The position numbers and the translations under genes are program-made. A model generated the notes under the pieces. The model was not told the DNA's origin. It was given only the letters and a program-made list of their open reading frames with translations, and searched no databases. Source: Flavobacterium oreochromis (GTDB lineage: Bacteria; Bacteroidota; Bacteroidia; Flavobacteriales; Flavobacteriaceae). Taken from it: 64,000 nucleotides of DNA. Below are positions 8,311-54,414 of this stretch, piece by piece (the stretch's first letter is position 1; every line of letters begins with the position of its first letter). The stretch is from assembly GCF_019565455.1 (NCBI RefSeq), contig NZ_CP067377.1:3230001-3294000 (forward strand), read 5' to 3'.

Positions 8311-8313
8311 AGG

Positions 8314-9156: not shown

Positions 9157-9174
9157 TTGTCTATTTTTAAGTTA

Positions 9175-10295: not shown

Positions 10296-10345
10296 CGTTG
10301 AAATTGAAATTTTATAGTAGTTATTGTTAGCCGAATTTTGCCTTT

Positions 10346-13180: not shown

Positions 13181-13184
13181 AACT

Positions 13185-13617: not shown

Positions 13618-14112
13618 ATGGCCAGTTTAGCAGACTTACAAAACTTATTAAATAAGGCGGCAAAAGAAATGCCGGATAAAGCCTTACGGATTATTGGTGT
13701 TGAGGGTTTGAACTTCATTCAAAAGAATTTTAGAGACGAGGGCTTTACTGACGTGAGTACAAAAAAATGGGAAGAAAGAAAAACCGAAGACAATCGAGGC
13801 CGAGACATTACCCGTTACAGAACCAACCGACGAGGGAAACAGGGAAATCTTAACCGATACGGTAGCAAGAATAAAGACCGGGCAATATTGGTCGGTCATG
13901 GAACTGGAGGCGATAAACTAAAGAGCTCATTCCGGCACCGAATAAGTTTAGGCAGCTCCTCAGTAAGTTTTTACACTTATAAAGGTTATGCCGCAAGACA
14001 TAACGAGGGATTAGACGGAATGCCAAAACGTCAATTTATGGGTAAATCTGAATATTTAAACAAGCAGATTGCCGCGAAAATTAAAAAGGAATTAGATAAA
14101 TTATTACGATAG
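13618..14112 (+). CDS. Phage virion morphogenesis protein (Mu G-like tail completion)
   Basis: An intact, very basic protein of 164 residues. Segments WEERKTEDNRGRDITRYR, ILVGHGTGGDKLKSSFRHR and YAARHNEGLDGMPKRQFMG match the virion morphogenesis family (gpG of Mu, gpS of P2), in which an N..H..G.. PxRQFMG motif is conserved. It acts at tail completion and head joining. The ATG directly follows the previous stop. Confidence 0.75.
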   Translation: MASLADLQNLLNKAAKEMPDKALRIIGVEGLNFIQKNFRDEGFTDVSTKKWEERKTEDNRGRDITRYRTNRRGKQGNLNRYGSKNKDRAILVGHGTGGDKLKSSFRHRISLGSSSVSFYTYKGYAARHNEGLDGMPKRQFMGKSEYLNKQIAAKIKKELDKLLR

Positions 14113-14113
14113 T

Positions 14114-15281
14114 ATGTTAAGCAAAATATTTGGAAGTAGAGGACAACAAGCAGTTGAAAAAACAACCGCAAGACCAACAAAAAACACGGTTCATTTATCT
14201 GGCAACGCTTTGGGGGAAAAAAGTAAACCTTTCCGGCGGTGATGCCCATAATATTGAAAAGGTTACTCAATTAATGGTTGACGTAATTCGTCGTCAAAGG
14301 AGGCTTTGGCGTAAAGAGTTGAACGACTGGACGGCGCCAAGATATGCACGTTATCAGGCCGAAATACCTAAAACTTACCCGATGCAAGAACTTTATCAAG
14401 ATGTTATGCTTGACGGCCATTTAACGGGTATCACGGGAAACCGAACTTTACGAACAACAAACAAAGATTACATTTTTACCATTGATGGCATTAAAGACGA
14501 CGCTTTAACAGAACTTATAAAGGATAAGGAATGGTTCGAAAACGTTATTCAATGGGCGCACGAATCAACTTACTACGGATATTCTCTAATTTGGGTAAGT
14601 GATTGGGCAAAAGGAGAAATTAAAAAAGTTGAGCTCATCGATAGAGGTATCGTTATACCTGAGCATAGTGTGCTTTTATATGACGTTAACTCGGATAAGG
14701 GTATCGATTACAGCGAAATAAAAGACATTCTTTTATATGCCCAATTTTACGATAATATAGGTTTATTAGAAAAGGCCGCCGTTTATACAATTCTAAAACG
14801 TCACTCGTGGGGAAGTTGGGACGAATTCGAGGAGCTTTTCGGTATTCCGATCAGGATTGCAAAAATTGCCTCTCAAAGTGAAACCGTCAAAAATGAGGTT
14901 GCCGGTTGGCTTGAGGAAATGGGGTCAGCTCCTTATGGTGTTTTCCCAATTGGTACAGAGGTTGACATTAAAGAAAATAGTAAAACGGATTCTTTTAACG
15001 TATTCTTTCAAAAGATTAAAGCATTGGACGCTGAGCTTTCAAAGTTAGTTTTACATCAAACAATGACTACCGAAAACGGCTCAAGTAAATCACAGGGGGA
15101 AGTACACGAAAACACCTTAAACGAGGTTATTTATGCAGATGAAAAGAAAGAGCTTGCTTTCTTAAATAATAAGTTGGTTCCGGCAATGCGCCTACTTGGT
15201 TATAAAATACCTGACAAAGCAAAAATTGCAGTTGAAAAAACTACCGACCCGAAAAGCAAATTAAAATCGATAGCCAATTAA
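14114..15281 (+). CDS. Portal protein, DUF935 (Mu gp29-like), one-base shift near N-terminus
   Basis: The true start is probably ATG 14114 (MLSKIFGSRGQQAVEKTTAR). A +1 insertion in the GGGGGAAAAAA stretch at about 14212-14222 separates it from the main frame (GKKVNLSGGDAHNIEKV onward), for about 388 residues in all. DUF935 features are LYQDVMLDGHLTGITGNRTL, SLIWVSDWAKGE and SWGSWDEFEELFGIPIRIAK. It forms the dodecameric DNA gate of the capsid. The stop overlaps the next ATG (TAATG). Confidence 0.8.
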
Positions 15282-15403
15282 TGTCTAATGGTTACATATT
15301 AAAACAAAAATATGTAGAGGGAACTTACGGAGTAGAGGTTGAATTTATGCCATCCCCAGGAGACGGAAAAAACTCTAAGCCGGACAACTCAAAAAAGCCC
15401 TAA
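15281..15403 (+). CDS. Small open frame; possible N-terminus of the F-like head protein
   Basis: A 40-codon frame (MSNGYILKQKYVEGTYGVEV to SKPDNSKKP) starts by overlapping the portal stop. If one A is missing from the run at 15391-15396, it would continue as KKALSLLKLFYRTN, directly into the following F-like protein, which otherwise lacks an ATG and would need TTG at 15415. I list it separately because the join is inferred. Confidence 0.45.
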   Translation: MSNGYILKQKYVEGTYGVEVEFMPSPGDGKNSKPDNSKKP

Positions 15404-15414
15404 GCCTGCTTAAA

Positions 15415-16690
15415 TTGTTTTACCGTACGAATTGTTGTAGTACGCCTATACAATTAGATAAAACGGATAAAATCGACTTAAGCGGGCTATTTGAGGACTA
15501 CATTAAGGAAATATTTGGAACTCGTGAAATAAGCTCGGAAAACCAACAAAAAGCCGTTGAGCTTTATTATAACACTTTTGCTAAAGGTGTCGATGTTGGT
15601 TACAGTCCAAGCTTGGAAATGTACGACCCGGCTTTAGCTCATTCGTTAAAATACAACATTGCTCAATTTTCTGCTCTCAAAGAAACGAGCTTTAGAAAAC
15701 AATTAGAGGCCGCTCTTGTAAAAGACGGTAAAATTGTGCCGTGGTCAGAATTTAAGAAAGTAGCGGATAGCCTTAATATAGACTATAATCGCCGTTGGTT
15801 AGAAACTGAATATCACCATACAGTTGCGGCCGCCAATATGGCCGAAAAATGGCAAGATTTTGAGGCCGATGCAGACCTGTATCCAAACCTTAAAATTGTA
15901 ACCGCCGGTGATGCTCGAGTAAGGGATTCGCACAGGGTTTTAGATGGCGTGATTTTACCAATTAATCACCCTTTTTGGAAAACACATACACCGCCTTTCG
16001 ATTGGGGTTGCCGCTGTATAATTATACAAACAGACGAGGAGCCGGACGAAAAGGCACCGAATTTTAAGTTTAAAGAGGAATTTAAAAATAACCCCTATTA
16101 TAGTGGAAAAGTTTTTAAAAGTAATCCTTACGCTGATGGATTAAGAAACGACGAAATAAAAGAGGCCAAGAAAAACCTCTCTACTTTCTTGGAGTCTGAA
16201 ACAAACTTAATAAATACTAAAAACTCACGTGTTAAAATTAGTTTAGGAGCCGATTATCAAGACTTAAGAAGAAACTACCAAGTTGCCGACATTTGCTCTA
16301 AAAAGCTAAATATTGATTTCTTAATCAGAACGCACTCAGAGCTCAAAGGACTTACTAACCCGGAGTATTTAATTTTTAATAAATTTCTTGGTGATCGTAA
16401 ATCAATTGATGGTTTGAATAATATGCGCGGAGTTATTGACGACGCCAAAAAAACAAATGCTAAACAAGGCAGTTAACCCGGAGCAAATTCCGTATTACAT
16501 TGTTTGGGATTTTGACAAAATTAAAGGTCTCGACGTTGACGAGATTATAAGAACCTTACAACGCAAAATTACAAGCGAGAGGGGTCGGTCAATAAAAGGA
16601 ATGATTTTTCAGTATAAAGGCAAAGCGGCTCATTTAACCCGAGAGCAAATTATTAAAAGAGATTTCAAAAACCTTGACGTATTAAAATGA
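15415..16690 (+). CDS. Mu F-like head morphogenesis protein with extra C-terminal nuclease-like domain (frameshifted)
   Basis: Residues about 1-225 are the phage Mu F/SPP1 gp7 family, with ETEYHHTVAAANMAEKWQ, GDARVRDSHRVLDGV and the typical PPFDWGCRCII motif. A +1 insertion in the 7-A run (16447-16453) splits the C-terminus; joined, the protein has about 424 residues. The last 160 residues form a separate domain (AADICSKK-like region, IRTHSELKGLTNPEYLIFNK, ending LTREQIIKRDF) resembling the small toxin-type nuclease domains (PBECR type) often attached to phage head proteins. It would be packaged and delivered with DNA; this role is inferred. Confidence 0.75.
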
Positions 16691-17524: not shown

Positions 17525-17848
17525 TTACAATTTTATAATATGATGTTTACTTGATTCTTTTGGGTTAAAATACTTGTTATAAATTACTATTTCATTCTGA
17601 TAGTTTGGCAGTACTTCATAGCCATAAATCTCTTTATTCTTATGTGGCGAGTTTATTGATATATTTTGCCTGTTATAAGCCTCAATTAACTCTCTTAACC
17701 ACTCCGGCATTAAAACTTTTATGTTTTCCTGTCGTCCATCTGTATTATCTAAAACATCAAATGTTTTTTGCCCAATTTCAGTAATTAAATTGTGTAATTT
17801 ATCCGCCGTTGTTTCGTATGTAATATATTTTTTATAAATGTCTCTCAT
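17525..17848 (-). CDS. Hypothetical early phage protein
   Basis: An intact 107-residue protein with a helical N-terminal half (KLHNLITEIGQKTFDVLDN, MPEWLRELIEAYNRQ) and a beta-rich C-terminus rich in Tyr and Asn. It lies 3 bp upstream of the lipoprotein-like gene and just after a terminator, so these two may form a separate unit. No family was recognised. Confidence 0.55.
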   Translation of the reverse strand: MRDIYKKYITYETTADKLHNLITEIGQKTFDVLDNTDGRQENIKVLMPEWLRELIEAYNRQNISINSPHKNKEIYGYEVLPNYQNEIVIYNKYFNPKESSKHHIIKL

Positions 17849-24632: not shown

Positions 24633-26663
24633 TTAAAGGTTAAAATTTGAGCGCCATTCTGTTGGCCGTTGATTTGTGTTATATGCGTATTCCTCTTGTA
24701 ATTCATCGTCGAAAACTTCAGCGGGCTCCTCGTTTAATTCAAAGCGTTTTAGGTTTGGAATTCTAAAGCCATTGTTAAGCGTTTTAGGAGTGCTATCAAT
24801 GATGTTAATGTTTTCGATGTTGTTTCGTTTTCTCTTGGCGAAAGCCTCTACCGATGCAACATAAGCACTTTGTAAAAGTTGAGCCTCTTTGTCCGCTTCG
24901 GTTCTATTCATTGACGCCCTGTTATATCTTGGCATTTCCATAATTTCACAGATAAGACGATCTTTGTAGTAAACCAATGCTTTAAGTACTGAGCCGTCGT
25001 TTGCGTCAAGCCAATAAACGTCCACATCTTTGCCCTCAATAATTTTCATTTGTTGTATTAAGGCCTCACCTGTTAGGATTTTCCCGTTTTCTGCAATGGC
25101 TCTTTTACGGCCTTGTAGGTTTACATATCCTAAGTGGCAAGAGGTTGGTGTTTTGTGACCAAGTACCGGAAGTATTGCCGCCCAATTTGTTGGTTTTAAG
25201 TTCGGGGCTTGATTTGCTTGGAAATATTCCCAACGTGTTAGCTCTTTATTTTCCGGGTGAGGCATATTATTTGACATTTCAATATCTAAAAGCCTTTCAT
25301 TAACCAATGTGTCGTAAGGAATGATCAGTTTTTTATCTGTACGTTTTTGATTTGCCTCTGCTTTTGCGTGTGGCCTTGCTAACCAACCTAAATTTTGTTT
25401 TTCGACGTTATTTCTTAGGGTTCCAAAAGCTCGCTCGATATATTTTCCTCGGGCGTTGTTAGCCTCAATTCTTACGGCATCAAACATTGCTCCCGGACGT
25501 AATAAATTGTTTTTAAAACTGCTGTTTAATGAACTCTCACACTCTAACTCATACGGCAAGCAAAATCCCCATTCTGTATAATTGCGTACCATTTGACGAT
25601 AAAACTCCAATATTAATCCCTCTTTAGTTTTCCCGTAAACGAATGTTGTAAAACAACGGCTCGCTACATCTAGCCCTAAATAAAACCACATTCTGTCACC
25701 GTTTTGGTTATAAACGAATGGCGGTTGTCTATCATCGATTGAAATAAGTTCACCGGCCAACGTTGGTAAATCTAATTGATGGTGTGGTTTGTATTTTCCC
25801 ATGAATTTTTGACGATCTCCACTTCTTTCGTGGTGAGTGGCGATTCTGTTTTCCCACTTGTTTATATAATTTATAATTGTGGCCTGTGAAAGTTTCTTAA
25901 ATTCCTTTGGGTTGTAAAGTTCTCCGGTGTCCTCATTAAAAACTTGCGCGTATCCATTCAAAAACGCCTCGTAATTGCGCGCAACTTCTGTCGGGGTAGG
26001 TTTGTGTATCTGATTCTTAAAAAGTGCGTTAAAAATCATTTCTACGCGTTCGTCAACTTTTCGGGCGTTTTGCTTACCGGTTCCGTTCGGGTCTTTTATT
26101 AGCGAATAATAACTATTTTCTTTAAAATCCTTTAAAGCATCTTTAAAGCGTTTTGAAGTTGGGAGAGTGTGCTCCGTTTTATACTTGACTTTTAAAGTAT
26201 GTTGGAAGCTCTCAACATCATAAATCAAAGTTTCCATTATTCCGCGAAGTGAGCCTCTCATTCTGATTCGCTCCTCAATTCTTTTTTGCTCTAACTTAAT
26301 AACGGCCTGCATTACACTAGCGTTGATTATATATCGCTCTTGCTCGTCTGATTTTAAAGCCGAACCGTTTCTTTTAAACGCGGCGTAATATCTTACGGCC
26401 TCAGCATCAAATTGAAAAAATAAGTCTAATGGATGATTTACTTTTCGAGGGTCACCAAGTGCCTCCTGATATTCCGGTTTAAGGCTGTCAAAATTGATTA
26501 AAGGAATACCGTTTAAAAAAGCGTTCTCAATACGCTTGATTCCGTAAGGTTTCTCTTTGTATCTCCAAAGCTCTTGATATAAACTTTTTGATTTACTCCA
26601 AAATCTTGGAACAAGCTCCTCAATTTCGACAGCAACAACGTTATGTGAGTATTCAAATGGCAT
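24633..26663 (-). CDS. MuA-like DDE transposase
   Basis: 676 residues, intact, close to MuA in length. Residues about 305-430 hold the rve catalytic core: ELISIDDRQPPFVYN with Asp310/311, LPYELECESSLNSSF where the second acidic residue appears as Glu (374 or 376), and RIEANNARGKYIERAFG with Glu410. The region after the core is the mu-transpos C-terminal beta barrel, and the last about 75 residues would contact MuB. The N-terminal 300 residues include DNA-binding helices for end recognition. It performs strand transfer in integration and replicative transposition. Confidence 0.92.
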   Translation of the reverse strand: MPFEYSHNVVAVEIEELVPRFWSKSKSLYQELWRYKEKPYGIKRIENAFLNGIPLINFDSLKPEYQEALGDPRKVNHPLDLFFQFDAEAVRYYAAFKRNGSALKSDEQERYIINASVMQAVIKLEQKRIEERIRMRGSLRGIMETLIYDVESFQHTLKVKYKTEHTLPTSKRFKDALKDFKENSYYSLIKDPNGTGKQNARKVDERVEMIFNALFKNQIHKPTPTEVARNYEAFLNGYAQVFNEDTGELYNPKEFKKLSQATIINYINKWENRIATHHERSGDRQKFMGKYKPHHQLDLPTLAGELISIDDRQPPFVYNQNGDRMWFYLGLDVASRCFTTFVYGKTKEGLILEFYRQMVRNYTEWGFCLPYELECESSLNSSFKNNLLRPGAMFDAVRIEANNARGKYIERAFGTLRNNVEKQNLGWLARPHAKAEANQKRTDKKLIIPYDTLVNERLLDIEMSNNMPHPENKELTRWEYFQANQAPNLKPTNWAAILPVLGHKTPTSCHLGYVNLQGRKRAIAENGKILTGEALIQQMKIIEGKDVDVYWLDANDGSVLKALVYYKDRLICEIMEMPRYNRASMNRTEADKEAQLLQSAYVASVEAFAKRKRNNIENINIIDSTPKTLNNGFRIPNLKRFELNEEPAEVFDDELQEEYAYNTNQRPTEWRSNFNL

Positions 26664-29128: not shown

Positions 29129-30447
29129 TTATAGCCATTTTAAGATTTTTTTTACCATTTTAAATTTACCTTTATAAGGTGCATATCGAAATGGTAAATC
29201 AATCCAATTTGATTTTTTTACTATTGATTTTTGATGTGAAAATGTTTCAAAGCCTAATTTACCATGATAGGCTCCAATACCGCTCTGTCCTACTCCTCCA
29301 AAAGGTAAATTTTTATTAGAAAAATGTGACAATGTATCGTTAACACATCCTCCCCCAAAAGAGAATTTAGAAAGCAATTCTTTTTCAAAAGATTTATCTG
29401 TTGTAAATAGATATAAAGCGAGTGGTTTTTCAAAATGATTAATAAGATTATATAATTCTTCTTCAGTAGTATAAGAAATAATTGGTAGAATAGGACCAAA
29501 TATTTCTTCTTGCATAACTAAACTATTTAAAGTTGGTTCATCTAAGAGAGTTGGTGCTATATATAGATCAGCCTGAGTTGTTTGACCTCCAAATAATATT
29601 TTTTGATTTTCTAGTAAATTCAGTTGACGTTTCCAATTTTTTAGATTAATGATGCGAGCAAAATCATCTGATTTTTCTATAGTATCTCCTAATGCTTTTT
29701 TTATTTCTTCTATTAAATAAGGAATAAGTTTTTCTTTTACGCTTTTATGAACTGCTAAATAATCAGGAGCAATACAAGTTTGTCCAGCATTAAATAATTT
29801 TCCCCATATAATTCTTTTAGCCGCTAACTTTAAATCTGCTGTTTGATCTACTATACAAGGGCTTTTTCCTCCTAGTTCTAATGTAACAGGAGTAAGATGT
29901 TCTGCTGCTGCTTTAGCTACGATTTTTCCTACTGATACACTTCCTGTAAAAAAATATAATCCCAACGCTTACTTAATAAATCTTGCGCAATAGTATAATC
30001 TCCTGTTATTACAACTACTTGCTCTATTTCAAAAGACTCTCTAATAATTTTAGAAATAATAGAAGAACAATTTGGAGTAAGCTCTGAAGGTTTTAATGTT
30101 ACTTTATTGCCTGCTGCTACTGCTGCAATTAGCGGTGAAAATGCTAATTGAATAGGGTAATTCCAAGGACTGATAATAAGAATTTTACCATATGGCTCAG
30201 AATACAAATAATCCATTGATGGAAAATTAAGTAATGATGGAAATACTCTTTTGGGTTTTGCCCATGAATCTAGTTTCCTTATTGTATATCTTAATTCATT
30301 AATAATATATTCTGTTTCTGAAACCATACTTTCAAAATAAGGTTTTTTAAAATCCTTATATAGGGCTTCTTGCATATCAGTTTCATATTTTACTAGATTA
30401 TCTAGTAACTTTTTTAAAACTTTTTTTCGTTGGGTTACGGTATACAT
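29129..30447 (-). CDS. Aldehyde dehydrogenase, NAD(P)+-dependent (frameshifted)
   Basis: Two frames join if one T is added to the run at 29947-29953: KRWDYI continues FFTGSVSVGKIVAKAAAEH. About 439-440 residues, usual for the short fatty-aldehyde dehydrogenases (ALDH3 type) that lack the mitochondrial-type N-terminus. Motifs include ISPWNYPIQLAFSPLIAAV, LELGGKSPCIVD with the catalytic Glu, GKLFNAGQTCIAPDY with the catalytic Cys, EEIFGPILPI and NLPFGGVGQSG. It oxidises aldehydes to acids. The C-terminus (WIDLPFRYAPYKGK) is typical of this subgroup. Confidence 0.9.
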
Positions 30448-32646: not shown

Positions 32647-35088
32647 TTATTCTCTGTAGAAAATCCTCGACACACGACGTGAAATACCTGTTAATATCTC
32701 GTAAGGAATAGTGTCAATAGCAGTAGCTATAACTGTTACAGGCAAATCTTTTCCAAAAATAATTACTTCATTTCCTTCTGCACAAGCTATATTTGTTACA
32801 TCTATCATAAGCATATCCATACAAATACTTCCTAAAATAGGTGCTTTTTGACCATTAACTAAAAGATAACCAACTCCTCTCCCCCATTTTCTAGATATTC
32901 CATCTGCATAACCAACTGGAATTACAGCCATACGCATTGGTTTTTCTACAACAAAACGACGATTATACCCAACGGTATCACCTATTTTTAATGTTCTAAT
33001 TTGTGAAATAACAGATTTTAAGGTTCCTACTGTTTCTAAATATTTCATTTCAGTTAAATCATTAGAAACCCCGTACATACCTACTCCTAATCGAACCATA
33101 TCAAACTCACCTTCAGGATAATTACTAATTCCAGAAGAATTACAAATATGACGGATAGGTTTATAATCTAAAACATTGATAATTTGATTGGAAAGAATAT
33201 CAAACAATCGTATTTGTTTTAAACTAAACGTTTTATCAATAGCATTATCACTTTCAGCAAAATGGGATAAAATTGTTTTGATCTTAATCCATTTATTAGT
33301 TTGAATTACCTCTATTAAGTCTGGAATTACTTCTTCATCAAATCCTAGACGATTCATTCCTGTATTAATCTTAATATGTATAGGATATTGCTCTTTCTTT
33401 TTTTCTTCTAAAATTTTTATAAAAGCTTTTAAACCACGTAAACTATAAATTTCAGGTTCTAACCCATGTTTAATAATTGATTTAAAACTTGTCATTTCAG
33501 GATTCATAACCATAATAGGAACTTCAATTCCTGCTTTTTTCAATTCTATCCCTTCATCTGCGAAAGCTACCCCTAAATAATCAACTTTATGATGTGCTAA
33601 TAATTTAGCTATTTCAAAGCTTCCACTTCCATAACCAAAAGCTTTTACCATTCCCATTATTTTGGTTGTTGATTTTATTTTAGTTTTATAATAATTAAAA
33701 TTATGACTTAAGGAATTTAAATTAATTTCTAAAACAGTTTCATGCTTTTTTTCCTCTAATAAGGAAACAATCTTTTCAAACTCAAAAACACGAGCTCCCT
33801 TAATCAAAATAGTTTCATCTGAAAAATCAAGAGTATCAAAGGTATTAACAAAAGAAGCTGTTGATTCAAAAGAAATAGTATTTAAAAATAAATTTTTAAA
33901 TTTAGTAATTGTACTTCCAATACAAATAACTCTTGTAATCCTATTCGATACAATAAGCTGTGCTACTCTAGAATACAACTCTTCATCAGGTAATCCTGAT
34001 TGAAAAATATCTGAAATAATAAGGGTTCTTTTTTATGTTGTCTCTGATTTTGCAAAAATCTAAAGCAATTTTTAGTGACTCAAAATCAGAACTATAACTA
34101 TCATCAATTAGAGTACAATTATAAATACCATTTTTGATTTTTAGCCTCATTTCTACAGGATACAATTCAGCTATTCTTTCTTGAATTATATCCTGATCAT
34201 ACCCTAAATACAACATTGTTAAAATACAATGTATACTATTTTCTAATGATGCTTCATCTATGAAAGGAAGTTGTATTTTAAAACTAAAATCCTTATAAAA
34301 AGGGTAAAAATAGTATTTTGACCAATAATTTTTTTTTGAAAAAATACATCAGCACTTTTATCCTCTGTACTCCATGTAAAAGTTTTTATGGACTTATTTA
34401 AACAGTCTTCTATTACTTGACTTTTATTTAAAATTAGAACTTCAACCTTATCAAAAAGTTTTAATTTTTCTCTTATTTTTTGAGAAATATTTAAAAAACC
34501 TTCATCATGAGCTGAACCAATATTAGTTAAAATCCCTATAGTTGGTTGAATTATTTTTTGCAAATTACGCATTTCATTAACAGTAGAAATTCCTGCTTCA
34601 AAAATTCCTAAATTATGCATTTCATTAATACCTATTATTGAAAGAGGTACTCCAACTTGTGAATTATAACTTTTTGGACTTCTTATAATTGTATAATCTG
34701 GACTTAACAAAAAGTTTAACCATTCTTTTACAATTGTTTTGCCATTACTACCTGTAATTCCTATTACTGGAAATGAAAATAAACTTCTATAATAAGCAGC
34801 AAATAATTGTAAAGCTTCTAAGGTATCTACTACTTTTAAAAAATTAGCTTTACCTAACCATTTTTCATCAACTGTTTGTACTACAAATGATTTTACTCCT
34901 TGTGCTATTAAAGTTTCTATATATTGATGCGCATCATGATGGGGTCCTACAAGAGCAAAAAAAAGTGTAGATTCTGCATTCTGATGTGATCGACTATCTA
35001 CTGAAATTGTATTAATTAAAATAGAACTGTCTAATTCTATAAATTCACACGACAATGCTGTTACAATTTGTTTAAGTATCAGAGCCAT
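32647..35088 (-). CDS. murF-alr: Bifunctional MurF / alanine racemase (three single-base deletions)
   Basis: About 814 residues when three missing bases (runs at 34297-34301, 34054-34058 and 34029-34034) are restored. The MurF half has the ATP site VIGITGSNGKTIVKEWL and DSRSHQNAESTLFFAL at the N-terminus; it adds D-Ala-D-Ala to UDP-MurNAc-tripeptide. The Alr half (from about residue 375) has GMVKAFGYGSGS with the PLP lysine, MVRLGVGMYGVS, GYADGISRKWG and EVIIFGKDL; it makes D-alanine. The fusion is characteristic of Bacteroidota. Both activities are essential, so the breaks are almost certainly sequence errors. The start overlaps the tdk stop (TAATG). Confidence 0.93.
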
Positions 35089-36867: not shown

Positions 36868-37542
36868 ATGAGTAAATTATACATAGTTCCTACACCTATT
36901 GGTAATTTAGAAGATATGACTTTTAGAGCTATAAGAATTCTAAAAGAAGTAGATTACATATTAGCAGAAGATACGCGTACGAGTGGAAAACTTCTTAAAC
37001 ATTTCGAAATTACTACTCCTATGCAAAGTCATCATATGCACAATGAACATAAAACAGTTGATCAAATAGTACAACGCTTACAAACAGGGCAAAATATAGC
37101 ATTAATTAGTGATGCTGGTACTCCTGCCATCTCTGACCCTGGGTTTTTATTAACACGTGCTTGTATAGAAAATGGTATAGAAGTAGAATGCTTACCTGGC
37201 GCAACAGCATTTGTCCCAGCATTAGTAAATAGTGGTTTACCTAATGACAAATTTGTTTTTGAGGGTTTCTTACCTGATAAAAAAGGAAGACAAACCCGTT
37301 TTTTACAATTAACTGAGGAAACCAGAACGATAATTATATATGTTTCACCTCATAAATTAATTAAAACATTAACTGAATTTGTTCAATATTTTGGTCCTGA
37401 TCGTTTGGTAAGTGTTTCTAGAGAACTTTCTAAACTTCACGAAGAAACAGTAAGAGGTAAAGCAGAAGAAGTATTAAAACATTTTGAAACAAAACCTCCA
37501 AAAGGTGAAATTGTAATTTGTATAGCAGGAAAAGCTAAATAG
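36868..37542 (+). CDS. rsmI: 16S rRNA 2'-O-methyltransferase (C1402)
   Basis: 224 residues, intact. KLYIVPTPIGNLEDMTFRAI at the N-terminus, YILAEDTRTSGKLLKHF, ALISDAGTPAISDPGFLLTR and ECLPGATAFVPALVNSGLP are the RsmI (tetrapyrrole methylase fold) signatures. It methylates C1402 of 16S rRNA using SAM. It is the last host gene before the cassette array and is convergent with it. Confidence 0.93.
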   Translation: MSKLYIVPTPIGNLEDMTFRAIRILKEVDYILAEDTRTSGKLLKHFEITTPMQSHHMHNEHKTVDQIVQRLQTGQNIALISDAGTPAISDPGFLLTRACIENGIEVECLPGATAFVPALVNSGLPNDKFVFEGFLPDKKGRQTRFLQLTEETRTIIIYVSPHKLIKTLTEFVQYFGPDRLVSVSRELSKLHEETVRGKAEEVLKHFETKPPKGEIVICIAGKAK

Positions 37543-37555
37543 TAATTTCTTTTTT

Positions 37556-37862
37556 GAATTAGACTTGAGATAGAACAAATCATTCTTAAAATACATGAGT
37601 TTAATATAATTTTATTTAAAAAAATTAATTGTTTTACACTAATAAAGTTGTTTTGTAATAGTGCACATTTTATAGCAAGTTCGAAATTAAATTCTGATGT
37701 GTTTTTCGAGGCATTAATTATTTCAAACACAACACTTCCTATATGATTAATGTATTCAATTTTTTGGCCAGGATTTTGTCCGCCATATGTTTGTCCACTA
37801 TGTAAAATACTAACTTTTCCCCATAAATCTTGCAAATCGTCAATTGTAAAAGTATCGTTCAT
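37556..37862 (-). pseudogene. Truncated HD-domain phosphohydrolase remnant (cassette 5)
   Basis: From ATG 37860-37862 the frame gives a recognisable N-terminus of an HD-family guanosine-polyphosphate-hydrolase-like protein (VSILHSGQTYGGQNPGQKIE, YINHIGSVVFEI, AIKCALL). At CALLQ, where the family has the catalytic HD pair (LLHD), the sequence departs and becomes a low-complexity Ile/Leu frame that runs antisense into rsmI. It has lost the active site and everything after, so it is a remnant. Its truncation point, about 37665, may be the edge of the array. Confidence 0.65.
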
Positions 37863-37895
37863 TTTGTCTATATTTTAGTGTATAATGATGTCCAA

Positions 37896-38259
37896 CGCCA
37901 GTCTGTGAAAAAACTTCACAGCATCAGCCAAATATAGCTAAAATAATTAGTAGAAAAAGAAGTGGTTTTGTGTTTTTAATGATGCAACATATTCAAGGAA
38001 TCTCGTACGATAGTTACATTTATACAGTTTAGAAGATAAGTTAGTATGCCAAAAAATGAAGGAAAACATTTAAAAAAACCTCTGAAACAGATTCTTGTAT
38101 ATCATTAAATTTTTGGTTCAAGATTCCTATAGTCGATGAAATTGAATCGGTTCCGTTCAACAGAGGTTTACTTCACTGAGTTTCTATTTTGTTTTGGTGT
38201 TCAGTGATTACAATTCATTATTGGCTCTTCGAGCCCAACGAAACCTTAGCTGTTAACTG
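37896..38259 (-). repeat. attC-like site after cassette 4 (364 bp)
   Basis: Half-site CAGTTAAC (38259-38252) at the end of cassette 4 and GTTGGACA (37896-37889) at the start of cassette 5 bound the site. The body is a diverged copy of those at 38897-39367 and 40505-40896: AGCTAAGG next to the first half-site, TGAACGGAACCGATT, and the hairpin TGTGAAGTTTTTTCACA near the second. The internal GAGGCAC terminator seen in the other two has decayed here. Confidence 0.65.
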
Positions 38260-38264
38260 TAGTT

Positions 38265-38564
38265 TTATTCTTGAATTCTATTTTTTAAATCCATTCTTGA
38301 ATGTAAGATTCTAGTTATTTCAATTTCGTGAGCATTTAAAATTCTGTAAAAAATTAGGTGTTTACCAGATTGGTAACTGAAAACTTCATTTTTTATTTCT
38401 TCATAATTTTTACCCAATATTTGATTTTCTGCTAATTCTTGACAGTCATTTAAGAGTTCAAAATAATATTTGTCTGCTTGTTTTTCTGACCAGACTTCGT
38501 ATGTATAATCCCAAATTTTTGATAAATCTTCAAGAGCTTTGTTAGTTAGGAAATATTTAGCCAT
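38265..38564 (-). CDS. parE: ParE/RelE-type toxin
   Basis: 99 residues, intact. KYFLTNKALEDLSKIWDYTY at the N-terminus, an ELAENQILGKNYEEIKNEVF middle and a C-terminal HLIFYRILNAHEIEITRILH with the final SRMDL are typical ParE. ParE toxins poison gyrase, while some relatives cut mRNA. Its start overlaps the ParD stop by 8 bp, so the two are co-translated. Toxin-antitoxin pairs are common in chromosomal cassette arrays, where they stabilise the array. Confidence 0.88.
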   Translation of the reverse strand: MAKYFLTNKALEDLSKIWDYTYEVWSEKQADKYYFELLNDCQELAENQILGKNYEEIKNEVFSYQSGKHLIFYRILNAHEIEITRILHSRMDLKNRIQE

Positions 38565-38805
38565 TTCTTTTTCTGGCTTTTAATGTTTCAAGATGCTCTT
38601 TTGGATTAAAATCTTTTACAATTCCACTTTCAATTCCTTCATTAATTGCCTTTTTAAGTGCAATTATTTTGTTTTCTTCTTCTTCTAATAATCTTAGACC
38701 AGCACGAATAACTTCGCTAGCGTTTTTAAATCTACCTTCAGTGATTCTGTTGTCAACAAAAGTCTCAAAATAATTACCTAAAGAAACAGATGTGTTACGT
38801 CCCAT
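38557..38805 (-). CDS. parD: ParD-type antitoxin
   Basis: 82 residues from Met 38803-38805 (MGRNTSVSLGNYFETFVDN); the Met 30 bp upstream would add a non-family extension. A ribbon-helix-helix N-terminus (NTSVSLGNYF ... FKNASEVIRAGLRLLEEEE) binds the operator, and the C-terminal EGIESGIVKDFNPKEHLETL wraps the toxin. It is the first gene of cassette 4, 91 bp after the cassette junction, leaving space for its own promoter. Confidence 0.88.
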   Translation of the reverse strand: MGRNTSVSLGNYFETFVDNRITEGRFKNASEVIRAGLRLLEEEENKIIALKKAINEGIESGIVKDFNPKEHLETLKARKRNG

Positions 38806-38896
38806 AATTTTAAATATTTTTCGTAAAGTTACCAAAATTTGGTAACAATTAAAAAATAAATCCTCTTTTTTTCGTTCGGCGAAAAATTACAGTTAA

Positions 38897-39367
38897 CGTC
38901 AGTCTGTGAAAAAACTTCACAAACCCTGTCAAATATAGCCAAAATAGTTTGTTAAAAAAATCGAGTTTTCGTATTTTTAAAATACAACACATCCAAGGAA
39001 TCTTGCGTAATCAGTTACATTTGTCCAGCTTAGAAGACAAGTATTGATACCCAGTATCAAAGGGAAACAATAAAAAACTCCGAAATACAGACTTCAAAAA
39101 AGAGGCACTCTGTGCCTCTTTTATATCATTAAACTTTTAGTTTGAAATTCCCATAGTGAGTGGATGGAATGCAATCGGTTCCGTTCAACAGAGGTTTACT
39201 TCACTATTTTTATATTTTTCATAGGTGTTCATTAACCCGAGCCATAGGCAAATTGACGAAGTATTGTAATTCATTGTTCGTGCTTCGCACGCAACGACCC
39301 ACGGAGTGATGATGAATACCTATAAAAAAACAATATAAACGAATGAATACACCTTAGCTGTTAGCAG
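38897..39367 (-). repeat. attC-like site after cassette 3 (471 bp)
   Basis: It is bounded by CTGCTAAC (39367-39360) and GTTAACTG (38897-38890). It contains the hairpin TGTGAAGTTTTTTCACA near the second half-site, a strong intrinsic terminator GAGGCAC/GTGCCTC with T run (about 39104-39122) and TGAACGGAACCGATTGCATT. About 110 bp near the first half-site (39230-39345) are unique to this copy. Similarity to 40505-40896 is near identity over more than 250 bp. Confidence 0.7.
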
Positions 39368-39377
39368 TAGTTGTTAT

Positions 39378-39842
39378 TCAGCAGCCAAATTCTCCCTTGA
39401 TTTTATATTCGATTTCTTCGGACTTATTGTTTATTTTTAAAGTTCCTTTACAAAATCCTCCTTCATCATATTGTTTTATCATTTTGGTTTTTAAAGTTGC
39501 TTTATATCCATTTCCGCTGTAGATTTCTATGTATTCGTTTTTAGAAATTTCTTTACTATTTATTGTGTCTTTTTCCAAAAACACGTTTTTGCCGTTAACT
39601 TTTATAATTGCAAAACTGGATAGATTTGATAGAAATATATAATTCTGATCAACTGATTTTTCATTTTCGAGTGTGAAATAATCTCCGCATCCGTCAATCG
39701 TGTCGGGAATAGTTTTAAAAAAATCAAGCTTAAATACAGTTTTATTTTTTGCTTTATCATTTTCAATTATTTCAGATTTTCCATTTTTATTGCAAGAAAT
39801 CAAAGTAATAATCAAAAATGTATGTAAAAGTTTATTTTTCAT
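39378..39842 (-). CDS. Cassette-encoded lipoprotein, unknown function
   Basis: 154 residues from Met 39840-39842; the Met 15 bp upstream would lengthen the signal's n-region needlessly. Signal MKNKLLHTFLIITLISC with lipobox LISC, then a Lys/Asn-rich linker and a beta-rich domain with four more Cys or Gly turns (TIDGCGDYFTLENEKS, GFCKGTLKINNKSEEIEYKI) ending in Cys. It is the only gene of cassette 3. Orphan lipoproteins are typical array cargo. Confidence 0.7.
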   Translation of the reverse strand: MKNKLLHTFLIITLISCNKNGKSEIIENDKAKNKTVFKLDFFKTIPDTIDGCGDYFTLENEKSVDQNYIFLSNLSSFAIIKVNGKNVFLEKDTINSKEISKNEYIEIYSGNGYKATLKTKMIKQYDEGGFCKGTLKINNKSEEIEYKIKGEFGC

Positions 39843-39867
39843 TTCGTTTTTATACAATTACTGCTAA

Positions 39868-39978
39868 CGTCTTGTGGCTTCATGAAGTGGCGGACTCGTG
39901 ACCGAGTTCTTTCTGCTAATATAATATTTCTTGTGAAATGTAAACGTGAATTTACTACAAAATTCTCCCTCTTGGCAA
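39868..39978 (-). repeat. Short attC-like site after cassette 2 (111 bp)
   Basis: It is bounded by TTGCCAAG (39978-39971), complementary to the TTGGCA start of cassette 2, and GTTAGCAG (39868-39861). Its body is unrelated to the long sites and includes the hairpin ACTCG-gtca-CGAGT. The length is within the usual attC range, and the sequence is of a second subtype. Confidence 0.6.
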
Positions 39979-39998
39979 ACCGCTATTAAAAGTAGGTT

Positions 39999-40470
39999 TT
40001 ATTTTTTATAATAGTCATATTTCCCCACAAAGCATCTTACAGTGTCTATTATTACTTTATTCCAATTTATATATTTTGATCGTTCAGCTAAAAAGTCAAT
40101 ATTATCAAGTTTATCTGACTTGGTGTTTATATCATCATAACTATAGTTTTCACTTAAAAATAAAGCAGGAAATAATTTATAATCGTGTTCTTTTATAAAA
40201 GTTTGCCTAATATTCTCGTATTTTACTTGTCTTTTTGAATTAAAATCTAATATCATTTGTTTTAATTCATTTGAGGATTTTGGAGGATTTTGGATGATTT
40301 TTAACTAAGATTATTTCATCAATTCTATTTTCAATAGTGTCAATTCTCGTCAGGTGATTAAGGACAATGAATTCTGTTTTGTTGAAAAAAATATAATTTA
40401 TAGAAATTAAAAAAAAGACAAATATAATTAGCCCAATTAATTTCATTTTATGTTTTTTTAATAGATACAT
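39999..40470 (-). pseudogene. Cassette-encoded membrane-anchored protein broken by a 10-bp tandem duplication
   Basis: The N-terminal frame (MYLLKKHKMKLIGLIIFVF, one membrane segment) ends 40267; the second frame continues to 39999 (KQMILDFNSKRQVKYENIRQ). They join perfectly if one copy of the duplicated 10-mer CCAAAATCCT (40274-40293) is removed: HPKSS continues NELKQMILDF, giving about 153 residues. The break is therefore a real duplication rather than a homopolymer error. One hydrophobic N-terminal helix is followed by a soluble domain; no family recognised. Confidence 0.6.
40274..40293. repeat. 10-bp perfect tandem duplication
   Basis: AGGATTTTGG occurs twice in tandem (40274-40283, 40284-40293). 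Removing one copy restores the reading frame of the cassette 2 gene. Confidence 0.85.
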
Positions 40471-40504
40471 TAAATTTTACAACGTTTTTTATAATTACTG
40501 CCAA

Positions 40505-40896
40505 CGTCAGTCTGTGAAAAAACTTCACAAACCCTGTCAAATATAGCCAAAATAGTTTGTTAAAAAATCGATTTTTCGTATTTTTAAATAAACAACACAT
40601 CCAAGGAATCTCGCGTAATCAGTTACATTTGTCCTGCTTAGAAGACAAGTATTGATACCCAGTATCAAAGGGAAACAATAAAAAACTTCCGAAATACAGA
40701 CTTCAAAAAAGAGGCACAGAGTGCCTCTTGTATATCATTAAACTTTTAGTTCGAAATTCCCATAGTGAGTCGATGGAATGCAATCGGTTCCGTTCAACAG
40801 AGGTTTACTTCACTGAGTTTCTATTTTGTTTTGGTGTTCAGTGATTACAATTCATTGTTCTTGCTTCGCACGCAACGAAACCTTAGCTGTTAGCAG
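40505..40896 (-). repeat. attC-like site after cassette 1 (392 bp)
   Basis: It is bounded by CTGCTAAC (40896-40889) and GTTGGCAG (40505-40498). It contains AGCTAAGG beside the first half-site, an intrinsic terminator GAGGCAC/GTGCCTC (about 40711-40731), TGAACGGAACCGATTGCATT, and the TGTGAAGTTTTTTCACA hairpin beside the second half-site. Nearly identical to the site at 38897-39367 over its left part. Confidence 0.7.
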
Positions 40897-40902
40897 TAGT
40901 AC

Positions 40903-41582
40903 TTATTTTCCTAACGCAAAATAAGATGGATGCTCTATATATCCCAAATCAATGATATTTTGTCTTTCAAAAAGATTTTTTAAAACATCTATAATATCTG
41001 ATATAAGGCTCAAAGAAAAATTATCTTTTAAAAATTCTGGACTTTTACCATATTCAAATACATATTCTTTTCCTTTATATTCAATCTTTCGACCTTCTTC
41101 TTTTACAAAATATATTCCTCCAGTATGAATTGTGTTTCGCAAAGTCCAAAACAATACAAGAAACTTGCAATCTTCATTCTGCCAATTATTTTCTGAATCA
41201 TCAAAAAGAGTTGCAATAATTTTAAAAATTTTTTTTCACTTCCAGGAGTTAATCCTGTTATTTTTGAGTAGTAAAATCTAAAAATTAATTCTGTTTGAAA
41301 AAGTATTGTATCAATAATATTTTTATTTAGATTTTGAGTCAAGTTGAATGAATAATTTTGTGCTTGAATAATATCATCATTAAATATTTTTAAAAATTCG
41401 TTTCTATTTTCTGTTGAAAAACGAACGTTTATATCATAATTTATGTAAGCAACTGTTATTTCACTTTGGAAAAGTTCAATGTGTTTTCTTCTTATGTCTT
41501 TTTCAGGTAGATGTTTAAAGTTTGCAACATTGTTTTTTGCTTTTAAATATAAATCATATAGTAAATTCAATACTTCGGGCAT
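40903..41582 (-). CDS. Cassette 1 protein, unknown; HEPN-like RNxxH motif (frameshifted)
   Basis: Two frames join to about 226 residues with one base added to the T run at 41229-41236: SEKK continues IFKIIATLFDDSENNWQNED. Helical throughout the N-terminal two thirds (LYDLYLKAKNNVANFKHL, IIDTILFQTELIFRFYYSKI), then LFWTLRNTIHTGGIYF, which recalls the RN..H active-site motif of HEPN-type RNases. If that holds, it could be a defence or toxin protein. Motif only; not verified. It starts 28 bp after the first cassette junction. Confidence 0.6.
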
Positions 41583-41603
41583 AATTTTTTGTTCTTCTTG
41601 GTA

Positions 41604-41640
41604 GTATTACTGCTAACTCATAAATAGGCGAACCTATCTT
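41604..41640 (-). other. First cassette junction; possible attI-like site
   Basis: The first cassette begins at GTTAGCAG (41617-41610), preceded on the - strand by GGTTCGCCTATTTATGA. No matching CTGCTAAC half-site lies upstream of it, unlike all later junctions. An attI site has only one such core, so this position, between the recombinase gene and the first cassette, is where an attI would be. Confidence 0.4.
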
Positions 41641-41663
41641 AATCGTTTTTATTGTTATTATTG

Positions 41664-41703
41664 AAACAATTTAAAAATATGTACTTCGTATTTTAAATTG
41701 TTT
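41664..41703. terminator. Hairpin between recombinase and array
   Basis: AAACAATTTAAAA (41664-41676) and TTTTAAATTGTTT (41691-41703) form a 13-bp AT-rich stem, 31 bp past the recombinase stop. It would separate recombinase transcription from the cassettes. Confidence 0.55.
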
Positions 41704-41733
41704 TTAATCTTTTCATCTAAATATATAACTTTT

Positions 41734-42800
41734 CTACAAGTTATCTAAAGGACTAATAATTTTTCTTAAACTCATATCTGTCAATTTTGTATAAATTAAA
41801 GTCATTTTTATATCATTGTCACCTAACAACTCTTGTATAAATCGAATATCTGTTCCATTTTCTAATAAATGAGTAGCATAACTATGTCGTAAACTATGAA
41901 TTCCTATAGGTTTACGAATACCAGCTTTACATAATGCTTCTTTAAAAATTTTTTGAATACTTCTTATAGAATACTGCCCTCCATACTGCCCTTCAAATAA
42001 ATATTCTTTGGTTTGTACTCATGATAATATTTTCGTAACTGAGATAAAATACTTTCTGGTAAATTTACATATCTATCTTTTTACCTTTCCCTTTTGAACA
42101 TGTACTCTCATATTTTTACTATCAATATCATAAATTCTCAATTGTACAATTTCTGAAACCCTAAGCCCCATTCCATAACAAAGTTTTAAAATGGTATTAT
42201 GCTTCAAATTTTCTGTGACATTAAAAATAGCTTTGATTTCAGTACTATGTAATGCTTTAGGTAGTTTTAATTGCTTTTTTGGTCTTGGAATTTCAAGTAC
42301 AATCTTTGGTTGTTTCAATATTTCTTCAAAGTAAAATTTAATACCATTAATTCTACTATGAATTGTATTTTCTTTTAATTTTAAAGCACTTAAACAGTGC
42401 AAAAGAAATTCTGTAATATCTTCAAGTTTACATTTGCTAGCTTTTTTATCCTTTATAAAATATAAAAATTGAGCGAGTTCTTGTACATAACATCTTATTG
42501 TACTTTGACTATAACCTAACAAATTTAATTGATTAACCATTTTGTTAAGTTCAATTTGATTATCTGGATAAATTTTAGAATGAATTAATTGACTGACTTG
42601 ATAATCTATTGTTAAACCAAAAAATTTCCGATATTGAAGTACGTCAGGAACATACCAAGCTAATTGCGATTGACTCCAACGACTACCTTTTAAAGATCTA
42701 ATAGGTAAAATTAAAGAATCTCTTTTTTCAAAAGTTATGAAAATTACCTTTTGGTTGCGATGCGAACCTAATCGAAACTGTAGGGCTTTAAATCAAACAT
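41734..42800 (-). pseudogene. Degraded tyrosine recombinase (Xer/IntI-like)
   Basis: Joined frames give about 355 residues: an N-terminal arm (MFDLKP ... RWSQSQLAWYVPDVLQYRKF), a SAM-like core-binding domain (YSQSTIRCYVQELAQFLYFI), and a catalytic domain with Arg in GMGLRVSEIVQLRI, HSLRHSYATHLLENGTDIRF, and IYTKLTDMSLRKIISPLDNL carrying the Tyr. At least three shifts (near 42770, 42080 and 42010) break it, and the conserved LLGH is LLGD, removing the usual second catalytic His. The SPLDxL end is like integron integrases, but the extra IntI helix before HSLRH is absent. It is directly upstream of the array and in the same direction. Confidence 0.75.
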
Positions 42801-52301: not shown

Positions 52302-54414
52302 ATGCCAAATAATGAAAATAGATATATAGACCGTGAAAAAAGCTGGTTAGCATTTAACTTTAGAGTATTACAAGAAGCAGGTGATGAAAAAGTACCTTTA
52401 TTAGATCGTTTACGGTTCTTAGGAATTTTTTCAAATAATTTAGACGAATTCTTCCGCGTTCGATATGCCGCCATTAGAAGACTTGCTTTAGAAGGAAAAA
52501 CAAATGAAGAAATTTTAGGAGGAATATCATTACAACAATTAATCAAAGACATTACAGATACAGTTATAGAACAACAATCTGAAAGTCTTAGAATATTAAG
52601 CATTATTGAAAAAGAACTAGGAAAAGAAGGTATTTTTATCATTAATGAAACTGAAATAAACAAAGAGCAACAAAATTTTATTAGAGACTTTTTTATTCAA
52701 AAAGTAAGCCCTGAATTAGTAACTATCATATTAAATGATTTAGATGAATTTCCTTTATTAAAAGACACATCAGGATACTTAGCAATAAAAATGGTCATGA
52801 AACCAAAAGAAGAGTCTTCTATTTTGGAAAAAATAAAATTCAAAAAAGATGTTCGATATGCCGTAATTGAAATTCCTAAAACTATTAATCGTTTTGTCGT
52901 TTTACCTTCAAATAATGACAAACAATATATCATCATGCTAGATGATGTAATACGCTATAATATTCATCAAATATTTACCATTTTTGATTACGATAGCATA
53001 ACTGCTCATATGATTAAAATTACTCGTGATGCAGAATTAGAACTTGATACTGATTTAAATAAAAGTTTTTTAGAAAAAATTTCATTAGGAGTCAAAGACA
53101 GACGAATAGGAGAACCTGTACGCTTTGTATACGACCAGACGATTGATAAAGATACCCTTAAATTTTTCTTACAAAAAATGGGGATAAATTCAAAAGACAG
53201 CTTAATTCGGGTGGACGATACCATAATCGTCGTGATTATATGGATTTTCCTAATTTAGGTCGATTTGATCTATTATATAAATCAAACGTTCCTTTATCTG
53301 TAAAAGGATTAAGCATAGAAGGTAGCTTTTTAAAAAAAATTGAACACAAAGATTACTTAATAAATGCTCCTTATCAGTCTTTTTCTTATATAATAAAATT
53401 TCTTAGAGAAGCTGCATTAGATCCTTATGTTACAACAATTAAAATTACCTTATACCGCTTAGCAAAAAACTCACAAATAGTAAGCTCCTTGATTAATGCT
53501 GCTAAAAATGGAAAAAAAGTCATCGTTCAAATAGAACTTCAAGCTCGATTTGATGAAGCTAGTAACATTTCCTATGCAGAAATAATGCAAACAGAAGGTA
53601 TAGAATTAATTTTTGGAGTAAAAGGTTTAAAAGTACACAGTAAAATATGCTATGTTGAAAGAATTGATGAAAGAGGAAAATTAAAACGCTATGGAATTAT
53701 CTCTACAGGTAATTTTAACGAGTCTAGTGCTAAAATATATACAGATGTTACCTTATTTACGGCACATCAAAAATTTTAAAAGACATGGTTAAAGTCTTTG
53801 AATTCTTTCAAATTAATTATAAAGTACATCGTTATAAACACTTAATTCTTTCACCTCATTATACCCGATCAAAATTTTGTAAATTAATTGATCGTGAAAT
53901 ACTTAATGCTTCATTAGGAAAACCCGCTTATATAAAACTCAAAATGAATAGTTTATCTGATTATAAAATGATAGATAAATTATACGATGCTAGCAGAGCA
54001 GGTGTAAAAATACAATTAATCATTAGAGGTATTTGTTCATTAATTCCTGGTATAAAAGGAATGAGTGAAAATATAGAAGCTATTTCTATAGTTGATGCTT
54101 ATTTAGAACATTCTAGAGTTTACATTTTTTGTAACGAAAATAATCCTGATGTCTTTATCTCATCCGCTGATTTTATGACTAGAAATTTAGATGCCCGAGT
54201 AGAAGTATCATGCCCTATTTATGATGAAGATATAAAAGAAGAATTAATAAATACTTTTGATATAGGCTGGAAAGGCAATGTTAAAGCCCGTTTTCACTCA
54301 GAAAAATTAGATAATAAATATCGACTAAGAGGAAATAATCCTGTTTTCAGAGCACAATTAGAAACCTATCAATATTATCGAAATAAAATAGAAGTTATAG
54401 AAGAAATAATTTAA
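52302..54414 (+). CDS. ppk1: Polyphosphate kinase 1 (two one-base deletions)
   Basis: About 704 residues, normal for the family. A missing C near 53208 (SLIPGGRYHNRRDYMDFPN spans the join) and a missing A at 53769-53773 (TAHQ continues KILKDMVKVFEFFQ) break it. Domain order: N (RYIDREKSWLAFNFRVLQEA), head, then two phospholipase D-like halves with the catalytic His in GLKVHSKICYVER and LEHSRVYIFC, and RVEVSCPIYDEDIKEELINT. It polymerises phosphate from ATP. It is followed after 10 bp by the Ppx gene, a pairing common in bacteria. Confidence 0.92.

Follow-up and report, generated by a model that had tools for sequence, protein, structure and literature searches.

Integron-like gene cassette arrays beside a non-IntI tyrosine recombinase in Flavobacterium oreochromis and other Bacteroidota

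A stretch of 64,000 nucleotides (nt) from the genome of Flavobacterium oreochromis (contig NZ_CP067377.1, positions 3,230,001 to 3,294,000), referred to here as the window, carries on its minus strand an integron-like array of gene cassettes, which runs from 41617 to 37543 and is faced by a gene for a tyrosine recombinase. The original prediction, made from the letters of this stretch, had described five leftward modules bounded by G|TT junctions, and all five are present, with the G at plus-strand coordinates 41617, 40505, 39868, 38897 and 37896. It had further claimed that the start and end of each complete module are complementary over about 7 nt. In cassettes 1, 3 and 4 the pairing was found to extend to 15 nt (GTTAGCAGTAATACT with GTTAGCAGTAGTACT, GTTAGCAGTAATTGT with GTTAGCAGTAGTTGT, and GTTAACTGTAATTTT with GTTAACTGTAGTTTT, respectively), the single mismatch being at position 11 in all three. 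The pair TTGGCA/TGCCAA assigned to cassette 2 was rejected, as TGCCAA sits within the L''-like box AGCGGTTTGCCAAG; by sequence, the R'' of this cassette is likely CCTACTTTTAAT, which is decayed and pairs at 6/10 positions only, with the L''-like AGCGGTTTGCC following it. The names of the L and R boxes, like the term cluster of attC sites lacking integron-integrases (CALIN), are those in use for integrons.

All cassettes are read from the minus strand. Cassette 1 (40505..41616) has the R'' CTACTGCTAAC, a long attC core at 40888-40505 with the 15-nt arm match, and two listed open reading frames (ORFs) at 41582-41103 and 41154-40903, which have no assigned function and probably represent one gene split by a frame change. 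We take the RNTIHT motif in the product of 41154-40903 to resemble HEPN ribonucleases; the Pfam scan gave no such family. Cassette 2 (39868..40504) holds a short or split gene (ORFs 40470-40267 and 40256-39999) and an attC core of normal length (39984-39868), and cassette 3 (38897..39867) holds an ORF at 39857-39378, lipoprotein-like by eye, followed by a long attC core at 39359-38897 with the 15-nt arm match. Cassette 4 (37896..38896) encodes a ParD antitoxin (38835-38557; PF03693 at 3.5e-24) and a ParE toxin (38564-38265; PF05016 at 2.7e-18) before a long attC core at 38251-37896 whose arms also match. The truncated cassette 5 (37543..37895) starts with GTTGGACATCATTAT, carries a truncated ORF and abuts the 3' end of the convergent gene 36868-37542; no R'' and no end were found in it. 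The four attC cores measure 383, 116, 462 and 355 nt, and an Rfam scan of the window gave zero matches. Elsewhere in the window, positions 1-27661 resemble by eye a Mu-like prophage: ORFs like those for tail, baseplate and capsid are present, as is one for a DDE-type transposase (24633-26663).

The absence of a typical IntI integrase was rightly noted by the original prediction, with no match at E<=1e-70 in the genome of the window, and the recombinase gene adjoining the array was overlooked. This gene (41734..42789, minus strand, its stop codon read from the sequence) is XerA/IntI-like, with a PF00589 match of 118 bits and an E value of 6.2e-152 against the profile of alignment A1. It ends ~117 nt before the first G|TT, and its frame is broken; a 155-residue piece contains a SAM-like N domain and Phage_integrase. 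Between its stop and the first G|TT lies an attI-like leader (41617..41733, minus strand) ending in CGCCTATTTATGA|GTT. In the regions read, this leader was found three times (the window, L051:5780 and L053:4166; L numbers denote loci), with a recombinase beside one only: the leaders of L051 and L053 precede arrays for which the stretch read shows no recombinase gene. Similar boxes lie behind the recombinase in relatives. Several other window genes within 28400-55300 look split by eye, such as an aldehyde dehydrogenase (29129-30447), murF/alr (32647-35088) and a polyphosphate kinase (52302-54414), suggesting sequencing errors or decay; a sequencing error is therefore possible for the recombinase as well.

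The same layout was sought around relatives of the recombinase, in 60 neighbourhoods taken genome by genome and 80 obtained from a scan of genome contigs. Cassettes were chained by a rule that takes a GTT 40-420 nt past the recombinase stop, the reverse complement of the first 10 nt (at most one mismatch, ending in AAC) 150-4500 nt further on, and, as its partner, a GTT whose arms are complementary. Two or more cassettes in a row, and up to 17, were found in 28/98 neighbourhoods (L120-L159 and L185-L242, a few of them with non-Bacteroidota titles), and in 0/42 of L243-L284, 40 of which are outside Bacteroidota by title. Two controls per locus, one upstream and one same-strand, gave single steps and never two or more cassettes. 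Among the named holders are Flavobacterium aciduliphilum (L211), Algoriphagus ornithinivorans (L209), Algibacter (now Cognatitamlana) onchidii (L216), Winogradskyella ursingii (L218), Seonamhaeicola aphaedonensis (L227) and Aquiflexum sp. (L226). On the Chryseobacterium plasmid NZ_CP041688.1 (L297), the recombinase, at 67.7% identity, is followed by a four-step chain whose first junction lies 276 nt past the stop. The search for the same sites with different cargo, which the original prediction had proposed, was successful in many Bacteroidota.

Some of these loci hold further elements. Tiny units without an ORF, GTTGGGAAAAAT..ATTTTTCCCAAC with a 134-nt core, occur in L297 at 13186-13320, 15281-15415 and 17662-17796, and a similar unit lies behind the L156 recombinase. 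In L128 (oriented), a 2.5-kb element is present three times between AAC and GTT (4287-6788, 7916-10417 and 11785-14285), the copies being 95-99% identical and each carrying an ORF for a second tyrosine recombinase, and the array of L298 also contains a pair made up of an IS91 transposase and a tyrosine recombinase.

In total, 191 cassettes were chained, and 167 of them fall in the main core-length bins; the 24 with cores outside 105-125 and 146-155 nt were left out of the arm, folding, core and bulge counts and of the count of TAnnTTTG within attC. The claim that the sites are far longer than usual attC holds in the window and not generally, since 137/167 cores measure 116-122 nt. There are 110 different first 10-mers among the 167 cassettes, and in L133 15 cassettes have 15 distinct arms and 4 cores. 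Across the 167, the two arms agree at 96-100% in positions 1-9 and 72% in position 10 (positions 1-10 belonged to the selection rule), at 2% in position 11, and at 91, 89, 82 and 72% in positions 12-15, with background from 16. The base at position 11 is A in 166/167, opposite C (140), G (20), A (4) or T (2); an A opposite a non-T is seen in 164/167, i.e., a fixed unpaired position, and A opposite C gives a T-G wobble on the bottom strand and a mismatch on the top strand. In the L stem, 94.3% of cells are paired vs 53.9% after shuffling (0/500) and at most 48.6% in slid controls, at sites chosen partly for arm complementarity, and both sides change in 11/11 covarying pairs. When sites were folded as circles, the bottom strand was the more stable in 154/167 by folding energy only, while in control windows from cassette bodies the bias is reversed, with the bottom strand favoured in 41 and the top strand in 114 of 157. 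Tandem cassettes bounded by AAC/GTT attC sites with complementary R and L boxes, as expected of an integron, are therefore present. The extrahelical bases, which integrons carry on the R''-L'' arm, are on the reverse side: unpaired bases average 5.42 on R'-L' vs 1.56 on R''-L'', and R'-L' is the richer in 160/164 sites, the 3/167 sites without a main arm having been left out. Pairing is typically interrupted by a 4-nt bulge on the R'-L' arm (131 sites) and by a 1-1 mismatch (159).

A 15-nt arm rule was applied to six regions of the window's own genome (one contig, 3.54 Mb), which has the long attC-like element at several further places. It gave 14 hits, 10 of them with 4/4 outer positions (L051, L052, L053 and L056), and no good cassettes in L054 and L055, while five mononucleotide shuffles gave 1, 0, 1, 3 and 2 hits of any kind; the remaining 4 weaker hits are taken as chance.

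The attI-like site was approached blindly, with the R'' unused. A box was called in 64 of the 78 neighbourhoods numbered below L244 that have 1 kb or more of downstream sequence, by weights set by eye from the same loci and for a box that itself has no null. The exact reverse complement of an array's own first 10-mer is present in 30/64 arrays, and with at most one mismatch in 43/64, compared with 0.9% and 13.2%, respectively, in 4014 cross-array control comparisons. The blind test thus places a putative attI-like site beside the recombinase gene, as in integrons. Past the recombinase stop, the motif TAnnTTTG, which we take to be the Bacteroidota-type promoter consensus, occurs in 26/58 loci with a candidate junction (some of these false) vs 3.8% of random windows. 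The motif was also considered as a general feature within attC and rejected in that role (39/167 forward, 5 reverse, 8.3 shuffled, mostly in L120, L125 and L133).

The recombinases that adjoin arrays were compared with IntI in several ways. Six relatives (L058, L059, L061, L063, L064 and L065) score 199.9-211.8 bits, in two stretches, against TIGR02249 (IntI), below its cut-off of 265, and the 155-residue piece from the window scores 92 bits; within NCBIfam the six are near XerA and the integron integrase and under both cut-offs. The best PDB sequence match of one relative is V. cholerae IntI4, in two stretches. An AlphaFold model of a named relative (predicted local distance difference test 85.6, predicted template modelling score 0.55) has XerA and IntI4 as best matches, adding little beyond sequence, and is predicted to have an extra N-terminal domain of ~65 residues. 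The spacing from GKGxKxR to HxLRH is 100 residues in 14/14 IntI and 58-63 residues in the 18 measurable array-linked recombinases (of 25), the other 7/25 not being measurable by this motif spacing. The ~42-residue IntI insertion (the additional domain, I2, near patch III) is missing from the array-linked recombinases. In a 93-row tree, the clade of all 12 IntI (with 8 others; support 100/100) contains 0/25 array-linked recombinases; these are spread over several Bacteroidota lineages, some on long branches, and are mixed with relatives of no demonstrated array.

Relatives of the recombinase were found in 9/100 relative genomes at E<=1e-25 (own genome counted), in 175/299 genomes of the window's genus with alignment A1 (E<=1e-60), which captures a broad family, and in 120/392 genomes of the phylum with alignment A2, 58 of them in the window's class or closer and 62 outside. 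A recombinase on Acinetobacter plasmids (and in one uncultured record annotated TnpF) is 52.9% identical over the C-terminal part of the query. For the sites, the covariance model R1 was built from 51 linear attC sites and used at E<=0.01; alignment A4 took in 51 of 71 references. In the window's genus, 108/121 genomes gave R1 matches, and these often reached the scoring ceiling of 25. Among 32 genomes reached via loci, 12/12 Bacteroidota and 0/20 others matched, many of the latter being richer in GC; 7/12 of these Bacteroidota had given rows to R1, and the remaining 5/5 match too. Real IntI is above cut-off in 107/392 phylum genomes, and of the 108 with a match 1 is in the window's class and 0 in its order.

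Cassette sharing was read from megablast comparisons of arrays and is given among the matches listed. A 1.3-kb cassette starting with GTTGGGCGCAATTA is 98.9-99.2% identical in L154, L188 (3918-5229) and L197, with unrelated flanks; by kinship labels, L154 is of the window's genus and the other two are of other families outside its class. Between L154 and L188 the identity begins at the junction, and against L197 it extends as much as ~30 nt past it, because neighbouring attC ends are alike. Its product is a dihydropteroate synthase nearest Sul3 (352.9 bits vs a cut-off of 475), and plasmid sul3 has 66.5% identity over 46% of the gene. A second cassette of ~1.43 kb (GTTAGTGGCAAGGCT) is 97% identical in L120 and L125 and, again among the matches listed, 94% identical to L154 from the junction onwards, as far as the available stretch reaches. 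A 442-bp cassette is present twice in L159 with 100% identity, and the first cassettes of L196 and L199 are 97.5% identical, which could be inheritance because both copies are at attI. Cassette exchange with paired half-sites, as originally proposed, is strongly supported, and neither of the patterns named as its refutation (blocks fixed with the same genes, target duplications) was seen, near-identical cassettes being flanked by unrelated neighbours.

The median cassette length is 793 bp. The largest ORF runs with the array in 147/150 cassettes that have an ORF of at least 60 residues, 11/161 have none, and 6 further cassettes longer than 2.5 kb were dropped from this count. Of the 147 ORFs, 116 were scanned with PADLOC and Pfam. 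At E<=1e-5, at least 74/116 proteins match no Pfam family, and 38 families were found, four with two members and the others with one; PADLOC matched 47 families, with one member each among the 25 listed. The cargo includes toxin-antitoxin, restriction, metal-transport and resistance-like genes.

The long sites of the window have a composition of their own. A terminator-like hairpin, an inverted repeat at 40707..40729 (minus strand) with a second copy at 39100-39122, lies in long attC 1 and attC 3, and the 3' end of long attC 3 (38897..38960, minus strand) consists of a TATATTTG box and TTTTTTCACAGACTGAC up to the G|TT, resembling the end of a transposase-bearing element. The last ~150 nt of the long sites recur in 10/100 genomes (own counted), other species included. 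Elements with a transposase (DUF772/DDE), presumably of IS1182 type, were observed at the G|TT end of attC-like sites at L053:4697-6259, L051:9408-10229 and near 8195 in L055. In both L053 and L055, TCAGGCTGTG, the left end of the element, comes right after an attC-like end, and the far ends read TTTTTTCACAGACTGACG|TT; the right end of the element reads ..CAGACTGACG|TT, and the element was seen at G|TT in two cases only. Between the element ends, L053 has an antisense transposase with PF13751 and PF05598; an element of L051 has one with PF05598. It is possible that these elements form an attC-targeting insertion sequence (IS) family. From their sequence we read the long attC as sites into whose junction an IS-type element may have inserted; most of the element would then have been lost and the sites multiplied with their cassettes. 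Their R arms still match. The hairpin and the TATATTTG box might terminate one transcript and initiate the following one.

With the architecture, covariation, distribution and cassette sharing as observed, the array of the window is very probably one partly decayed copy of a Bacteroidota integron-like cassette system that uses a non-IntI tyrosine recombinase. The idea of a cassette system in this phylum was borne out, and the system is larger than first thought. Given its adjacency, the adjoining recombinase is, to much the same high degree of confidence, the enzyme of the system, and it probably acts on the folded bottom strand. A circular cassette would carry one attC, whose bottom strand is computed to fold into a hairpin with R'' paired to R' and L'' to L'. 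The recombinase encoded ahead of the array would bind this hairpin and the attI-like site ~40-200 nt past its own gene and would join the two at G|TT. Cassettes would enter at attI and be excised or copied between attC sites, as sharing and in-array duplication suggest, and a promoter box past the recombinase stop, in some lineages joined by boxes within attC, may drive the genes pointing away from attI, as judged by motif. In the genome of the window, which has three attI-like leaders, the recombinase is either broken or badly sequenced and the long attC carry putatively IS-derived DNA.

Several observations weigh against this interpretation. Recombination by the enzyme, excision circles and contact of the protein with DNA are predictions from sequence outcomes, and the single-strand route is predicted from folding energies. 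The window's own recombinase has one TGA and one TAG in frame, intact homologues existing elsewhere, and by eye an Asp where 18/18 rows of A2 have the second catalytic His. As for the layout, 21/64 blind attI calls have no R'' within one mismatch, TAnnTTTG is present in only 26/58 loci and is one base off in the window, 70/98 neighbourhoods fail the test of at least two cassettes (many for lack of DNA), in 4/28 chains (L120, L156, L188 and L238) the start lies outside the usual range for attI or the first step is false, and the upstream controls were often shorter than the downstream stretches. L126, L129 and L137-L143 have recombinase relatives and ample downstream DNA and no convincing attI-like box or array; they may be a side branch with another job or have lost their arrays, and part of the recombinase family may therefore have another role. 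Finally, Bacteroidota (or Bacteroidetes/Chlorobi) are already counted among the holders of integrons with IntI in the accessible portions of PMC8618304, PMC2426708 and PMC9668308.

One alternative is that the arrays are CALIN-like relics of ordinary IntI integrons, the adjoining recombinase being unrelated and the true IntI lost or acting in trans. The broken recombinase of the window would fit such a history, as would the bona fide IntI found elsewhere in the phylum in 107/392 genomes. It is nevertheless very unlikely: attC is present in 108/121 genomes of the genus, while IntI was found in 1 genome of the window's class and 0 of its order, a non-IntI recombinase repeatedly adjoins an attI-like box and array, and cassettes ~99% identical across families argue against relics. 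The host XerC/XerD, or another recombinase, could instead move the cassettes, leaving to the adjoining enzyme its own leader only. Candidates are available, as the genome has 36 PF00589 matches, and a single enzyme acting in trans would account for the recombinase-less arrays of L051 and L053. Such arrays are, however, normal for chromosomal integrons, and the attI-like box sits behind the stop codon of the adjoining recombinase in many lineages, which makes this explanation very unlikely.

That the repeats are the termini of insertion sequences or hairpin transposons, with the gene modules as cargo, is suggested by the long sites of the window, which share ends with elements holding an antisense transposase (L051, L053). 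The short cores that prevail (137/167) leave no room for a transposase, and the arms vary among modules and match within them, most clearly in L133, unlike fixed transposon ends; the IS-type element is located at the G|TT of a pre-existing attC and hence uses the site. The transposon explanation is accordingly extremely unlikely. For the integron-like cassette system, there is a somewhat better than even case that it forms a separate branch of integrons across much of Bacteroidota, whose XerA-like recombinase has no I2 helix and acts on a folded single-stranded attC of reversed asymmetry, with an R'-L' bulge and a 15-nt R arm that includes a fixed unpaired position. If this is true, single-strand cassette recombination does not in general need the I2 helix, and integrons either had more than one origin or predate I2; the same architecture without the I2 domain makes the published I2 requirement directly testable. 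A widespread gene-trading system may have been overlooked, as IntI-based tools would miss its recombinase, and its reach is illustrated by the Sul3-like cassette, ~99% identical in one genome of the window's genus and two outside its class.

In the literature, no description of non-IntI cassette arrays in Bacteroidia was found in a search that lay outside subscription papers and preprints, so that an earlier description is possible; the accessible parts of PMC3414803 and PMC7370490 hold nothing on a non-IntI cassette system. According to the available text of PMC7790495, the acquisition of the I2 helix gave integron integrases single-strand recombination; cassettes are not captured without this helix, which no other protein has. 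The additional domain is treated as defining for integron integrases in the available part of PMC9668308. An 'integron-like' subgroup of tyrosine recombinases, to which the present enzymes may belong, is described with an insertion 'not fully conserved' in the accessible sections of PMC8138268, which nonetheless call the insertion essential and give no cassette arrays without it. The Salinibacter ruber integron, from Bacteroidetes, is the sole complete one from Bacteroidetes proper named in the consulted portion of PMC9024848 and was found with an IntI-based tool.

Xer recombinases act at dif in dimer resolution. XerA and the archaeal-type Xer (NF040815; PDB 5hxy and 4a8e) are close relatives of the present enzymes in sequence and fold, whereas the gene described here goes with cassette arrays and the modelled relative carries the predicted extra N-terminal domain. 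The chromosomal integron of Treponema offers a parallel in layout, its intI being transcribed towards attI in the direction of the cassettes; it differs in having intI, while the enzyme here fails the IntI tests (available part of PMC3607928). Classical attC sites were compared via published descriptions only, since chaining by 7-mers yielded nothing on eight IntI loci (L292-L296, L170, L181 and L184). As far as the accessible text of PMC2727003 goes, they have 9-11 consecutive R pairs and extrahelical bases on the R''-L'' arm, whereas the sites described here have a 15-nt R arm with an unpaired position 11, extrahelical bases on R'-L' and no R''-L'' spacer. Judged on sequence, membership among the IntI integrons fails on the enzyme, which lacks the IntI insertion and lies outside the IntI clade, and on the extrahelical side; a further difference is that the recombinase faces the array. 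The architecture, sites and sequence behaviour match, with a recombinase, an apparent attI, tandem cassettes in one direction, the G|TT junction, the R''/L''/L'/R' layout, a bottom-strand hairpin as indicated by folding, and a cargo of toxin-antitoxin, resistance-like genes and genes of no assigned function.

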